From Singulisphaera sp. GP187 (GTDB lineage Bacteria; Planctomycetota; Phycisphaerae; Phycisphaerales; SM1A02), in NCBI GenBank assembly GCA_945868805.1, contig CAMBMO010000002.1, positions 1-64,000 on the forward strand: a stretch of DNA of 64,000 nucleotides. The letters run 5' to 3'. The stretch's first letter is position 1. Every line of letters begins with the position of its first letter. A program made the position numbers and the translations under genes. This document shows positions 12,237 through 40,920 of this stretch, in pieces. Under the pieces are notes generated by a model that was not told the DNA's origin, ran no database searches, and saw only the letters and a program-made list of their open reading frames with translations.

Positions 12237-13298
12237 CTACCGCCTCGCAACGCTTCGCTCGAGAAGTTCTCGAAACGCGTCTTCCCCCTGAGAGAACTTC
12301 AGTCCCAGAATCGGCACGACGACGGGCAGGCCGATGATTGCGGCATCGATGGCGACCTTTACCCAGTCCTTTCTTGTCATTGCGATCAGCTCGGCGCTCC
12401 TTTCCCTTGCGGTCTGCGTCAAGCGCGCAACTGCGGCGTGACCGTACGAAGCGTGGTCTCTTAACGACGCGACTTCGACGACCACCGCGCCCGACGCTTG
12501 AAGCTGTCGCACGAATCCATCTGGGCGAGCAATTCCCGCCCAGACCGCGACACGCCTGCCTCGAATCCATTCATTCGATTCGACGCGCGATTCGTCGCCG
12601 TGTTGCCGATCGTGGCGATGAATCTCCAATCCACTCCAGGCGTGATCGCACCAAGCGGTCGCAGAACGTCCGTGAAGGGTTCGAATCTTTCGATCGAGCT
12701 CCGCATCGAATTCGGTCGCATGAGTGACGACGACTGCTCCAGCGCGTGACAAGGATGTGGCAGGCTCGCGCAACCAACCGAGCGGTAGGAGCGCACCATC
12801 GAGCTGAGGATCGGTGCGATCAATCAACACGATGTCCAAGTCTCGTGCGAGCACGCGATGTTGGAACCCATCGTCCATGATCACGACTCCGATCGACGGG
12901 TCCAATGCGATGCAGGACCGAATCGTCTCGAATCGATTCGCTCCGACCGCAAGTCTTGCTTCAGGCACGATCTGCTGATGTTCGATCGCTTCATCGGATC
13001 TCCCATTGCGACTGCGATACCCACGGATCGCGATGAGAGGGATGAGAGGGATGAGAGGGATGAGAGGGATGGTCTGTCGCGAGAGCGCCCACTGCGCAAT
13101 CCAGCGAACCATCGGACTCTTGCCAGTTCCACCCACGACGATGTTGCCGACCGAAATGACAGGTTGCTCGACCGATCGAACTCCAATCCCGCGATCGCGT
13201 CGTGCATTTCGGGCACCCACGATGCGCCCATACGCGTGACTCGCAACGAGCGCCATCGGCGCGCACCAGCTCGGGAGAATGGATGGAGAGCGTGTCAC
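12237..13298 (-). CDS. lpxK: Tetraacyldisaccharide 4'-kinase (lipid A biosynthesis)
   Basis: 353 residues with the LpxK P-loop VGGTGKSPMVRWIAQW following the conserved PVISVGNI, then VVIMDDGFQHRVLARDLDIV, a hallmark of the family. It phosphorylates the 4' position of the lipid A disaccharide on the inner face of the inner membrane. An unusual local feature is a 9-base tandem repeat giving four PLI units (about residues 78-89), between the P-loop and the RGYRSR segment, where LpxK has a short loop. Its start overlaps the Maf gene stop by 4 bases and its stop precedes hldE by 10 bases, so the three genes are probably one transcript. Confidence 0.94.
   Translation of the reverse strand: MTRSPSILPSWCAPMALVASHAYGRIVGARNARRDRGIGVRSVEQPVISVGNIVVGGTGKSPMVRWIAQWALSRQTIPLIPLIPLIPLIAIRGYRSRNGRSDEAIEHQQIVPEARLAVGANRFETIRSCIALDPSIGVVIMDDGFQHRVLARDLDIVLIDRTDPQLDGALLPLGWLREPATSLSRAGAVVVTHATEFDAELDRKIRTLHGRSATAWCDHAWSGLEIHRHDRQHGDESRVESNEWIRGRRVAVWAGIARPDGFVRQLQASGAVVVEVASLRDHASYGHAAVARLTQTARERSAELIAMTRKDWVKVAIDAAIIGLPVVVPILGLKFSQGEDAFRELLERSVARR
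13032..13067 (-). repeat. 9-base tandem repeat, four copies, inside lpxK
   Basis: Four head-to-tail copies of gatgagagg (plus strand) give Pro-Leu-Ile repeats in LpxK. The unit is a multiple of three, so slippage would lengthen or shorten a loop without breaking the frame. Confidence 0.93.
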
Positions 13299-13915: not shown

Positions 13916-14987
13916 GACTACGCCCACCAGAAAGTCGCTTGCGGACGAGCGAGGCCACGTCATCCACGGAGATGCGTTCCATCAGCTTCCGACCCATCGC
14001 CGGATCACGGTGATCGTGTCTTGCGAGATCTTCGCCGTGGCCCCCGTGGATGCACCATGCCTGACCCTGGTAGGGACCATCGGTTGTCGGTCGGGTCGCA
14101 CCGTAGAGCGCGACGAACGGAACTCCCAATCCAACCGCCAAGTGCGTCGGCGCCGAGTCGAGTCCAATCAGCAACGATGCGTTCTGAATAACCGCCATCG
14201 TTGCGCCGACTGTCGTCAGTCCAACCAAATTATGAAATCGCAACTCTTCAATCGTTGACGCGCCTGCGACAGCATCCGCGACTTGCCCCTCCTCTCCGCC
14301 GGCCCCGATCCAGATCACGTCCTGAATTCCGTTGCGGACAAGATCGGGCGCGACGCTCCGCATCAAATCGCCCCAACGCGCATCAATCCATCGCTTTCCT
14401 TTCCAACCGTTCGTGGTCGCGAGCACAGCGAATGGTCCATTGATCCCGCGCCGAGTCGACTCCTCGCGCCACCACTCAACTGAAACCGATGGAGCAACGA
14501 GGCGCATGTCCGCGATCGCAACTACGCCGACTTCCGAAACGAGCCGCAACATCCCGTCCACGACATGGAGACCTTGGGGAAGTGTCACTCTATGATTGGC
14601 GGCAAGCCACGAAAACTCTCGTCCAGCTCGATCTCCCACACGGACCTTCGATCGAGTCATCCACGACATCAGACCGCTCCGTGCGAGTCCCTGCGCATCA
14701 ATCACGAGGTCGTATCGACCTCGGCTCAGGCGCAAAAACCACTGCAGAGTTCTCCAAGCGATTCGCGGATTTCGCCAACACGCCTTGAATTCTCGCTTGG
14801 GAAATTTCACGACGCCATCAATGGCCGGATGATCGCTGATCGCGGGAGACCATCGATCTTCGACGACCCAGTCGATCACAGCTTTCGGGAATGATTTGCG
14901 AAGCGACCAGAGCAACGGAACGGTTCGACAGACGTCGCCGAACGCGCTTGGGCGCACAATGAGGATGCGCCGTGGAACACTCCGCAT
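13908..14987 (-). CDS. Glycosyltransferase family 9 (ADP-heptose:LPS heptosyltransferase-like)
   Basis: 359 residues from the ATG at 14987, giving MRSVPRRILIVRPSAFGDVC, the standard start of heptosyltransferases with the RxSAxGD motif. The frame stays open another 99 codons upstream, but that part has no family resemblance and overlaps the divergent kinase gene. The C-terminal half contains LLIGLDSAPTHLAVGLGVPFVALYG, the donor-binding signature of GT9. It would transfer heptose to the lipid A/Kdo core. The downstream neighbours Maf, LpxK and HldE provide lipid A phosphorylation and the ADP-heptose donor. The exact acceptor position is unknown. Confidence 0.9.
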   Translation of the reverse strand: MRSVPRRILIVRPSAFGDVCRTVPLLWSLRKSFPKAVIDWVVEDRWSPAISDHPAIDGVVKFPKREFKACWRNPRIAWRTLQWFLRLSRGRYDLVIDAQGLARSGLMSWMTRSKVRVGDRAGREFSWLAANHRVTLPQGLHVVDGMLRLVSEVGVVAIADMRLVAPSVSVEWWREESTRRGINGPFAVLATTNGWKGKRWIDARWGDLMRSVAPDLVRNGIQDVIWIGAGGEEGQVADAVAGASTIEELRFHNLVGLTTVGATMAVIQNASLLIGLDSAPTHLAVGLGVPFVALYGATRPTTDGPYQGQAWCIHGGHGEDLARHDHRDPAMGRKLMERISVDDVASLVRKRLSGGRSRE

Positions 14988-15052
14988 ATGAATTGCGAAG
15001 AGAAGTATAGTGGAAACCGAGATGTCGATACTTTTCGAGGACGTTTCTTCGC

Positions 15053-16378
15053 GTGAATGAATCCGAGACCAATTCCGAACCGACACCTTCTCCGGGAGAC
15101 TCTTCGAGTTCCCGGCCTGAGGCCAACGATGCATCCTCGAGTCGCAGTGGCGAGAGCGGAGGGTCTCGCGGGGGTAGCTCCTCTGATTCTGTGATGGGAC
15201 GCCTCGTCGTCGATCGAGGGCTCGCGACCCAGGCGGAAGTGGACGCCGCATTTGCCGCGATGCGCACACCTGCAGGAGAGTCAAAGGCGTTTATCGACAT
15301 TCTGGTTGAAGGCCAGGTCATCACTCGTCGTCAACTCGCGCGCCTGCGCAGCGAAGCCGAGAGCGATCGAACCGTCCTGCGAATTCCCGGCTATCAAATC
15401 ATTCGAAAGCTTGGATCCGGCGCGATGGCATCGGTGTATCTCGCGAAGCAGATGAGTCTTGATCGACTGGTCGCGATCAAGATTCTCCCCCACCGCTACT
15501 CGACCGATGCATCGTTCATCGAGCGTTTCTATAAGGAAGGTCGATCGGTCGCGAAACTCTCCGATCCCAACATCGTCGGCGCGTTCGATGTCGGCCAAGT
15601 CGGCGAACAGCACTACTTCGTCATGGAGTATGTCGATGGCGAAACCGTCTACGACCGCATCGTCAAGGCGAAGCGACTCAAAGAACGAGATGCGCTCGTC
15701 ATCGCACGTCAGGTTGCAAGTGCATTGAAACATGCCCATGCCCGCGGATTCATTCATCGAGACATCAAACCCAAAAACATCATCATGACCAAGTCCAACA
15801 TTGCAAAGTTGGCGGATTTAGGTCTCGCGCGATCGATCAGCGATAAGAAGGCGGCGGAAGCGGAGCGACACAAGGCGCTGGGGACCCCCTACTACATCAG
15901 TCCCGAGCAGATTCGGGGGTCTGTCGAACTTGGCCCCCCCGCGGACATCTATGGGCTTGGTGCAACGCTCTACCACATGCTCACTGGACGAGTTCCCTAT
16001 CAAGGGAGGAATCCGAGCGAGGTCATGCAACATCACATCTCGCAAGAGCTGACCCCCCCCGATCAAATCGCAGCGGGCATCTCGCAGTCGGCCGCAGAGA
16101 TTGTCGAGATGATGCTGAAGAAATCACCACGCGAGCGATATCAAACTGCGGAAGAGCTACTCGAAGATTTGGACCACGCGCTTGCTGGTGAACCACTTCG
16201 TCATGCCAGTCGAGCGATGGATCTCGCCAGCATCGCGACGGATGTCGAGGGTCAGGCGCAAACCGAAGTGCAGACGGCACCTGCGACCTCGCGCATGTTT
16301 TCTGGGCTCTCCCTTGCAGTCATCATCGGGCTAGGGACATTGTGCGGATTGCTCTTCGTTCTGCTCTTGAGAAAGTGA
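15053..16378 (+). CDS. Membrane-anchored serine/threonine protein kinase with two MshEN-like repeats
   Basis: 441 residues from a GTG (15053) with GAGGA about 12 bases upstream. An acidic Ser-rich head (1-42) is followed by two short repeats, MGRLVVDRGLATQAEVDAAF (about 44-63) and IDILVEGQVITRRQLARLRS (about 82-101), which resemble the GspE/MshE N-terminal helical motif. The kinase domain (about 113-380) has the glycine loop LGSGAMASVY, ATP lysine in VAIKIL, HRDIKPKNI, DLGLARS in place of DFG, and APE replaced by SPE. A single membrane helix ends the protein (about 417-438) with no external domain. It should phosphorylate cytoplasmic proteins at the membrane. Divergent from the heptosyltransferase gene. 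Confidence 0.93.
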   Translation: MNESETNSEPTPSPGDSSSSRPEANDASSSRSGESGGSRGGSSSDSVMGRLVVDRGLATQAEVDAAFAAMRTPAGESKAFIDILVEGQVITRRQLARLRSEAESDRTVLRIPGYQIIRKLGSGAMASVYLAKQMSLDRLVAIKILPHRYSTDASFIERFYKEGRSVAKLSDPNIVGAFDVGQVGEQHYFVMEYVDGETVYDRIVKAKRLKERDALVIARQVASALKHAHARGFIHRDIKPKNIIMTKSNIAKLADLGLARSISDKKAAEAERHKALGTPYYISPEQIRGSVELGPPADIYGLGATLYHMLTGRVPYQGRNPSEVMQHHISQELTPPDQIAAGISQSAAEIVEMMLKKSPRERYQTAEELLEDLDHALAGEPLRHASRAMDLASIATDVEGQAQTEVQTAPATSRMFSGLSLAVIIGLGTLCGLLFVLLLRK

Positions 16379-16386
16379 CCGCCAAG

Positions 16387-16423
16387 CGCGATCGCCGCCA
16401 TCGTTTCGCGATCGCCGCCATCG
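16387..16423. repeat. 17-base direct repeat between kinase and ridA-type gene
   Basis: cgcgatcgccgccatcg occurs at 16387-16403 and 16407-16423 with a period of 20. It fills the 46-base convergent gap. Each copy contains the palindrome gcgatcgc. Confidence 0.85.
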
Positions 16424-16424
16424 G

Positions 16425-16904
16425 CTAAGGATGGACTTCCACCATCATTTCGACTTCAACACACGCACCCAACGGCAATGCGTTCGTCCCGACAGCCGCT
16501 CGGGCATGCCGCCCAGATTCGCCGAAGATCTGTTGGAGCAAGTCGCTTGCTCCGTTGGCGACTTTCGGCTGATCGGCGAATCCATCGTCGCACGCGACGA
16601 AGACTCCCAGTCGCACGATTCGCGAGACTCGCCCCAGTCCACCGCATTCACCGGCAACGACCGCAAGCGCGTTCAAAACGCACTGACGGGCGCACTCTTG
16701 GGCAATATCCAGTGAGACCGCCGAGGGAACCTTGCCCGTTGCGATCAACTTGCCGCTCTGAAAAGGCAGTTGTCCGCTGACAACCAAAAGATTCCCCGTG
16801 CGAACCGCAGGCACATAAGAGGCGACGGGCTTCGGAGCCGGGGGGAGTTCAAGTCCAAGCTTGGCAAGCATTTCCATAGCACCGTGAGGGTTGAGGGTCG
16901 TCAT
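16425..16904 (-). CDS. RidA/YjgF-family protein
   Basis: 159 residues from the ATG at 16904 (MTTLNPHGAMEMLAKLGL); an in-frame start at 16961 adds 19 unrelated residues. The YjgF fold is recognisable from TGNLLVVSGQLPF, the central CVLNALAVVAGECGGLGRV and the C-terminal GRHARAAVGTNALPLGACVE. The subfamily resembles the longer 'RidA-like' group in which the Arg of the enamine/imine deaminase site (usually in SRxxxxVxxLP) is retained as the R in HARAAVGTNALP. RidA proteins remove reactive enamines made by PLP enzymes. There is no operon partner to hint at its substrate. Confidence 0.9.
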   Translation of the reverse strand: MTTLNPHGAMEMLAKLGLELPPAPKPVASYVPAVRTGNLLVVSGQLPFQSGKLIATGKVPSAVSLDIAQECARQCVLNALAVVAGECGGLGRVSRIVRLGVFVACDDGFADQPKVANGASDLLQQIFGESGRHARAAVGTNALPLGACVEVEMMVEVHP

Positions 16905-39279: not shown

Positions 39280-40920
39280 ATGACACCAACGAGCGAGTTA
39301 CGACTCGGCAATGCGGCCACCGATCTGACTCCGGCGACCGCGGAGGCGGAGACCGCAAAGGTCCGCGAGCGTTGTCAAAGCCTGGGCATTTCGTGGCTTG
39401 AGAAACCACCGGATACCGACCCGCTCGCGATCGCAATGCTGACGGCCGAAGTTGCCGTGCGGGTTCGTGCGGTCCCAGTCCGAGTCGAACGGGGTCGCCT
39501 GCTCGTGGCGATGTTCAATCCCCTCGACGTAGGAGCAACCGACGAGATCGCAGCGATTACGCGTATGCCCGTCAGTCGAGTGGGAGTCGAAGCCGCCGCA
39601 TTCGGCGAACTCATGCGACGTGCCTACGGCACAACTGCCGCGCGAATTGCAGAATCTCTCGCAGGAACATCGGACTCCCCGAACGATGAGTCGGTCCACA
39701 ATGTCGACGCGATCGAAACCGCCGACGTGCACCGCATGGCGGAGCAGCCGACACTGATCAATTTAGTGAATCTGCTCATTCTCGAGGCGATCCAGAGTCG
39801 AACGAGCGACATTCACATTGAACCCTTCGAGAGCGATCTCAAAATCAAGTATCGAATCGATGGTGTGCTGATTGAACAAATGCCACCGCCGAAGCATCTT
39901 CAAGCGGCACTGATCGGACGAGTGAAGATTATGGCGATGATGAACATCGCCGAGCGATACATCCCGCAGGACGGGCACATCACGCTCCGATTCGAAGGGC
40001 GAAAAGTCGACTTGCGAGTCTCAACAGTACCGACGATTTATGGCGAGAGCATCGTCATGCGAATTCTCGACAAGAGCAATCTGCCGTTGGATTTGCAGAG
40101 CCTCGGGATGAGCGAAGCGCATCGTGCCACGATGGATCGGTTGATCGAGAAGCCGCATGGATTGATCTTGGTCACGGGACCGACCGGTTCCGGGAAGACG
40201 ACAACCCTTTACGCGGCACTGAGCAAGCTCTACGACCCTCGCAAGAAGATCATCACGATTGAAGATCCAGTCGAATATGAACTGAGTGGCGTCAATCAGA
40301 TTCCGGTCAACCCGAAGCGCGGCCTGACCTTCTCGATCGGTCTTCGCGCAATTCTTCGCCAGGATCCCGATGTGATTCTCGTCGGCGAAGTTCGAGACAA
40401 CGAAACCGTCGACATTGCGATCCGCTCGGCATTGACGGGGCATCTCATCCTCTCCACACTTCACACCAACGATGCCATTTCGAGCATCGGGCGTCTGGTC
40501 GACATGGGAGCCGAACCTTTCCTCGTCGCGAGCGTCCTGGAAGGTCTGCTCGCGCAGCGCCTGGGACGAAGACTTTGCACGCGCTGCAAGACTCGAAAGG
40601 CACTCACCGAAGAATCCAAATCGAGATTGACTGCGGGAGAAGTTGCGGGATTCAGCGAGGGAGAGTGGCGACGTGTTGGATGCGAGGAATGCAAGAAGAC
40701 TGGATTCAGATCTCGGCTGGGATTCTTCGAACTTCTGAGAATGAACCCTCGGCTGAGGAATGGCATCACGAAACGACTCTCCGTGACTGAACTGAAGGAA
40801 CTCGTTGGAGCGGAGTTCACCAACATGCGCCAAGACGGAATGCGAAAGGCGCAAGAGGGAGCGACGACGATTTCTGAGGTCCTGCGCGCCACGCAAGACG
40901 TGGATGACGCAACGCCATGA
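39280..40920 (+). CDS. gspE: Type II secretion system ATPase GspE
   Basis: 546 residues. The N-domain (about 30-140, with AMLTAEVAVRVRAVPVRVERG) is the GspE/PilB N-terminal type. The ATPase domain has IEPFESDLKIKYRIDGVL, Walker A ILVTGPTGSGKTTTLYAAL (about 292-310), the Asp box ITIEDPVEYELSGVNQ, Walker B QDPDVILVGEVRDNET and the His box LILSTLHTNDAISSIGRL. A zinc tetracysteine (CTRC...CEEC, about 432-472) is present. It powers pseudopilus assembly at the inner face of the membrane. Its stop lies within a 15-base tandem array preceding gspF. Confidence 0.97.
   Translation: MTPTSELRLGNAATDLTPATAEAETAKVRERCQSLGISWLEKPPDTDPLAIAMLTAEVAVRVRAVPVRVERGRLLVAMFNPLDVGATDEIAAITRMPVSRVGVEAAAFGELMRRAYGTTAARIAESLAGTSDSPNDESVHNVDAIETADVHRMAEQPTLINLVNLLILEAIQSRTSDIHIEPFESDLKIKYRIDGVLIEQMPPPKHLQAALIGRVKIMAMMNIAERYIPQDGHITLRFEGRKVDLRVSTVPTIYGESIVMRILDKSNLPLDLQSLGMSEAHRATMDRLIEKPHGLILVTGPTGSGKTTTLYAALSKLYDPRKKIITIEDPVEYELSGVNQIPVNPKRGLTFSIGLRAILRQDPDVILVGEVRDNETVDIAIRSALTGHLILSTLHTNDAISSIGRLVDMGAEPFLVASVLEGLLAQRLGRRLCTRCKTRKALTEESKSRLTAGEVAGFSEGEWRRVGCEECKKTGFRSRLGFFELLRMNPRLRNGITKRLSVTELKELVGAEFTNMRQDGMRKAQEGATTISEVLRATQDVDDATP

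Follow-up and report, generated by a model that had tools for sequence, protein, structure and literature searches.

A tail-anchored Ser/Thr kinase with a two-motif N-terminal module

The window, by which we mean the whole 64,000-nucleotide stretch of DNA analysed, carries a Ser/Thr kinase gene on its plus strand (15053..16378). The open reading frame begins with GTG and encodes 441 amino acids plus stop, and the starts of orthologous genes coincide with it. Its coordinates, as well as both segments of the protein quoted in the initial annotation, were correct. A search for a sigma-70-like promoter in 14900-16500 found none.

The protein opens with a Ser/Gly/Pro-rich leader (residues 1-42; 15053..15178, plus strand) that is predicted to be disordered (pLDDT <50) and is poorly conserved. 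A module of four predicted helices follows (residues 43-102; 15179..15358, plus strand), and after it a protein kinase domain (residues 114-371; 15392..16165, plus strand), which constitutes the best Pfam match of the protein (Pkinase, E 8e-55). Mean column conservation was 0.35 in the leader, 0.54 in the module and 0.80 in the kinase.

The kinase domain displays the features of Hanks-type Ser/Thr kinases (catalytic Lys, HRD and D-x-G), and since K143, HRDIKPKN (235-242) and DLG (255-257) are conserved, the enzyme is probably active. It resembles PknB-type kinases (NF033483) in this domain, but its 319 bits fall below the 450-bit cut-off; unlike the PknB-type/PASTA kinases, it has no extracytoplasmic PASTA region and places its membrane helix at the very end of the chain. 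This C-terminal helix (approximately residues 418-440; 16304..16372, plus strand), recognised as a hydrophobic sequence and a predicted helix, is the only one predicted and nothing lies beyond it, in agreement with the single membrane helix without an external sensor that had been annotated.

Profile evidence for a divergent MshEN_N domain

The initial annotation had described two repeats ahead of the kinase domain, residues 49-67 (GRLVVDRGLATQAEVDAAF) and 81-100 (IDILVEGQVITRRQLARLRS). Both lie within collinear 24-residue half-motifs, V47-M70 (15191..15262, plus strand) and A79-A102 (15287..15358, plus strand), separated by 8 residues in the window protein and by 6-16 in its orthologues. The repeat pattern itself is present, except that the glycine assigned to the second repeat (G87) is shifted by one residue from the register, in which Q88 occupies the glycine position.

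To place these half-motifs, we compared an alignment of 39 orthologue N-termini (A1) with one of nine MshEN_N segments (A3) that NF053729, the NCBIfam c-di-GMP_motif model of a 53-residue c-di-GMP motif, had picked out in same-order or same-genus genomes. The two alignments matched with a probability of 97.7 (hhalign), the match running collinearly through both motifs across 48 columns. After gap trimming, the score was 58.8; none of 400 column shuffles (200 per side) exceeded 20.4, and the reversed A3 control reached 13.8. The suspected resemblance to GspE/MshE was thereby borne out for both motifs. Comparison of the two halves of the module with each other gave a modest margin (22.2 versus at most 17.9 in 100 shuffles).

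NF053729 matched 37 of the 39 orthologue segments (best E 3.6e-8), while the next family matched three; the window segment itself scored 18.9 bits (E 0.001), under the 38-bit cut-off. When 21 relatives were searched with this model, without the kinase serving as reference, the kinase gene was matched in several (E 2.5e-5 in G113, 0.03-0.08 in G091 and G114). A PDB sequence search with A1 returned PilF (7e-7) and the GSPII-A domain of that protein first, followed closely by MshE and PilB. Conversely, the isolated module segment had no match in Pfam, where it did not reach the 23.1-bit cut-off of PF05157 (MshEN), and the Pfam MshEN model matched none of the orthologue modules.

Predicted fold

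Structure prediction placed four helices in residues 43-106 (43-54, 60-69, 80-86 and 92-106). Modelled alone from an alignment of only 10 sequences, the module reached a mean pLDDT of 78 and superposed on MshE (5HTL) with a TM of 0.67-0.68 and an rmsd of 1.3-1.5, at weak Foldseek E-values (>0.1). A further comparison with 5HTL gave Z 9.0 and an rmsd of 2.0 over 58 residues, against Z 3.6 for the best unrelated chain. The predicted four-helix fold thus agrees with the N-terminal subdomain of MshE; given the weak Foldseek values and the shallow alignment, this fold call rests on agreement between methods.

The missing Pfam match and the weak Foldseek values could also mean that the likeness to MshEN arose by convergence of a short helix-turn-helix pattern in a small bundle of helices of unrelated origin, all the more as small helical bundles match easily and Pfam matches to FumaraseC_C and nitrile hydratase occur in 21 and 13 members, respectively. 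These two matches are weak, and we read them as chance resemblance of short helix-turn-helix stretches. Convergence appears highly improbable in view of the ordered alignment of both motifs far above shuffles, the breadth of the NF053729 matches, the clear separation of MshE and PilF from unrelated chains in the fold comparison, and the existence of kinases of intermediate sequence (L111, L113, L114 and L116). Profile comparison, the sequence search against solved structures and the predicted fold together support assignment of the segment as a divergent MshEN_N domain.

Degeneration of the ligand site

The half-motif consensus in MshE is RLGxx(L/V/I)(L/V/I)xxG(L/V/I)(L/V/I)xxxxLxxxLxxQ, and c-di-GMP is contacted there by R9, L10, G11, L25, L29 and Q32 along with their second-motif partners (PMC5013675). 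In motif I of the window protein, R9 is replaced by V47 and Q32 by M70, while G11 and G18 are retained as G49 and G56, as are most hydrophobic positions. In motif II, R38, G40, G47, L58 and Q61 correspond to A79, I81, Q88, R99 and A102. From the polar and glycine ligand set (R9, G11, Q32, R38, G40, Q61), only G11 is kept, and the orthologues are alike: the R9 position is hydrophobic in 39/39, Q61 is kept in 0/39, R38 is lost in 38/39 (Ala/Ser/Thr in 36/39), G40 is lost in 38/39, with glycine in one, and the L58 position is Arg or Lys in 37/39.

The functional weight of these losses differs. In MshE, changes at R9 or Q32 cost at most fivefold, and the G40I variant is no longer stabilised by c-di-GMP (PMC5013675). 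The argument from residues is therefore partly weak, and the changes at G40 and L58 carry most of it. A natural parallel is the GSPII-A domain of PilF, which does not bind c-di-GMP and carries Ser in place of R38 and Ala in place of G40 (PMC12002112); at these two positions the kinases have Ala/Ser/Thr and mostly Val/Ala/Ser/Thr, respectively. Several changes were required to restore binding to GSPII-A, which was lost again once Ser was put back at the R38 position of the rebuilt domain (PMC12002112). Taken together, the lost ligand residues, the G40I effect and the behaviour of GSPII-A make it unlikely that the window module binds c-di-GMP in the MshEN way. What had been annotated as a possible c-di-GMP sensor consequently stands only in part: MshEN_N homology is supported and a cytoplasmic input is still plausible, but the residues that bind c-di-GMP are not conserved in the protein or its orthologues.

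c-di-GMP turnover and genomic setting

As enzymes of c-di-GMP turnover are encoded in the genome, this organism probably makes the ligand. The only GGDEF protein found is a REC-GGDEF protein with GGEEF (L062), and four HD-GYP proteins carry their motif; a search of the genome for an EAL match found none. L062 and the four HD-GYP proteins make up a small c-di-GMP network. Other proteins of the genome bear MshEN-type segments nearer the consensus, and judged by these motifs they are likelier c-di-GMP receptors than the kinase. A GspE/PilB-type ATPase also lies in the window (39280-40920, plus strand) within a type II secretion-like cluster; it matches PF05157 at 39418-39639 (profile positions 14-88) without the half-motif I/II consensus.

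With a ligand source encoded, the module might still bind c-di-GMP, perhaps weakly, through a half-site or as a dimer, and so switch the kinase. Its homology to MshEN by profile, NF053729 and fold, the glycines and hydrophobic positions retained in motif I, and the near-consensus motifs of related kinases would all be in keeping with such a switch. We nevertheless consider it quite unlikely: the orthologues lack R9, R38, G40 and Q61 and carry Arg or Lys in place of L58, G40I removed the c-di-GMP effect in MshE, and GSPII-A of PilF does not bind after comparable losses.

Gene order revealed no partner beyond the family level. Neighbours of the LpxK, Maf, HldE, RidA, pseudopilin and NfeD types were considered as pointers to a dedicated partner and rejected, because they recur chiefly inside the family and are not shared class-wide. 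One cluster, which overlaps the kinase as well as the heptosyltransferase, mixes antisense frames and was excluded from this neighbourhood analysis. A search for plasmid matches found none. The LpxK-like open reading frame (12237-13298, minus strand) contains a short in-frame repeat, IPLIPLIPLIPLI.

Conserved polar residues and a possible docking role

Conservation within the module follows a different pattern from that of the ligand site. Five module positions (G56, E62, T91, Q94 and R97) do not vary across the 39 orthologues, and at R55, R99 and E103 the residue is retained in most. Maintenance of polar residues while the ligand pocket decays fits a protein contact or an intramolecular one.

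A different small ligand could instead occupy the former pocket, where R99, possibly joined by R97, would replace the leucine cluster, and the signal of this ligand could be passed on to the kinase. R97 is invariant and R99 is Arg or Lys in 37/39, at or adjoining the former base-contact position, and further polar residues are invariant as well. Gene order, however, suggests no ligand, and protein contact explains the conserved polar residues equally well, which leaves this reading unlikely.

We give a slightly better than even chance to a degenerate MshEN_N domain that now serves a tail-anchored kinase for docking or autoregulation and no longer binds c-di-GMP in the MshEN way. The kinase would face the cytoplasm and carry the divergent four-helix domain at its N-terminus. 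Its ancestor was probably a c-di-GMP-responsive kinase. The present module may bring a partner or substrate to the kinase domain, or may contact that domain itself through the conserved polar residues R55, E62, T91, Q94, R97, R99 and E103. We infer the docking or autoregulatory role by analogy.

Relation to known MshEN domains and kinases

The closest structural reference is the MshEN_N domain of Vibrio cholerae MshE (5HTL, PF05157, NF053729), with which the module shares two tandem 24-residue half-motifs and a four-helix N-terminal subdomain. It differs in the spacer, which is 5 residues in MshE, in the extensive loss of ligand residues, in scores under the curated cut-offs of MshEN_N models, and in having no MshEN_C subdomain, the kinase domain following instead after a short linker. 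GSPII-A of PilF, in the top two of the solved-structure sequence search with the kinase modules, was proposed by its authors to act as a protein landing pad; unlike the kinase module, it belongs to a traffic ATPase, has a C-terminal subdomain and is accompanied by two c-di-GMP-binding sister domains (PMC12002112).

Fusions of an MshEN module to a Ser/Thr kinase have been reported (Wang et al. 2016, PMC5013675), and the architecture is therefore not new. MshEN goes unmentioned in the main text of a survey of planctomycete kinases published in 2024 (PMC11032199), and Pfam is blind to the module here, so this branch appears unannotated. What seems novel is the degenerate, class-wide branch of these fusions.

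Distribution, ancestry and related kinases

Of the 101 genomes of the family, 93 contain the kinase, with one match each (E <1e-60); among those with at least 90% completeness and little contamination, the count is 72/73. The gene is single-copy and vertically inherited. It is also found elsewhere in the class, in additional families and orders, most copies aligning from about residue 42 onward, and a kinase-domain tree united the class orthologues in one group (support 100/99). L111 and L113, from other classes, adjoined this group with weak support (84/75).

The same module occurs on kinases of other planctomycete classes, some of which keep near-consensus motifs. The L112, L114 and L116 kinases pass the 38-bit cut-off of NF053729 (53.3, 45.7 and 45.1 bits, respectively); the L114 kinase has the Arg, both Gly and the Gln in both motifs, and the L113 kinase lacks the second Arg only. 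On the simplest reading, the ligand site would have decayed on the branch of this class, although the neighbouring branches are weakly supported. The ancestor was probably a c-di-GMP-responsive kinase of a type that some relatives elsewhere in the phylum still resemble.

In several lineages no module can be recognised on the kinase. In the orthologous kinases L076 and L077 the frame begins at the linker, and in L102 the upstream sequence is unrelated. Some lineages have thus retained the kinase but lost the module, whose role would not be essential everywhere.

Direct control of a Hanks-type kinase by c-di-GMP, if true, would connect two signalling systems that are generally investigated separately. 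The window protein is a poor candidate for such control. The planctomycete lineage nonetheless displays one module-kinase design with motifs ranging from near-consensus to degenerate, so that a small set of proteins (L112, L113, L114 and L116 versus the window protein) would allow this control to be tested. A broader scenario, in which a near-universal kinase of the class turned an ancestral c-di-GMP sensor into a receptor for another ligand or partner while relatives elsewhere stay directly c-di-GMP-controlled, strikes us as unlikely. The near-universal, unassigned kinase of the class gains a first structural handle.

The module was sought in other kinases of the window genome and not found there; other matches in that genome were weak, and the proteins carrying them are matched by MshEN models as well. 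MshEN-like modules are numerous in other planctomycetes (L110, L112, L117 and genome G142). The 8 Mb genome G142 contains 56 MshEN-like matches; the frames that carry them are about 170 to 1860 amino acids long, and some hold two.
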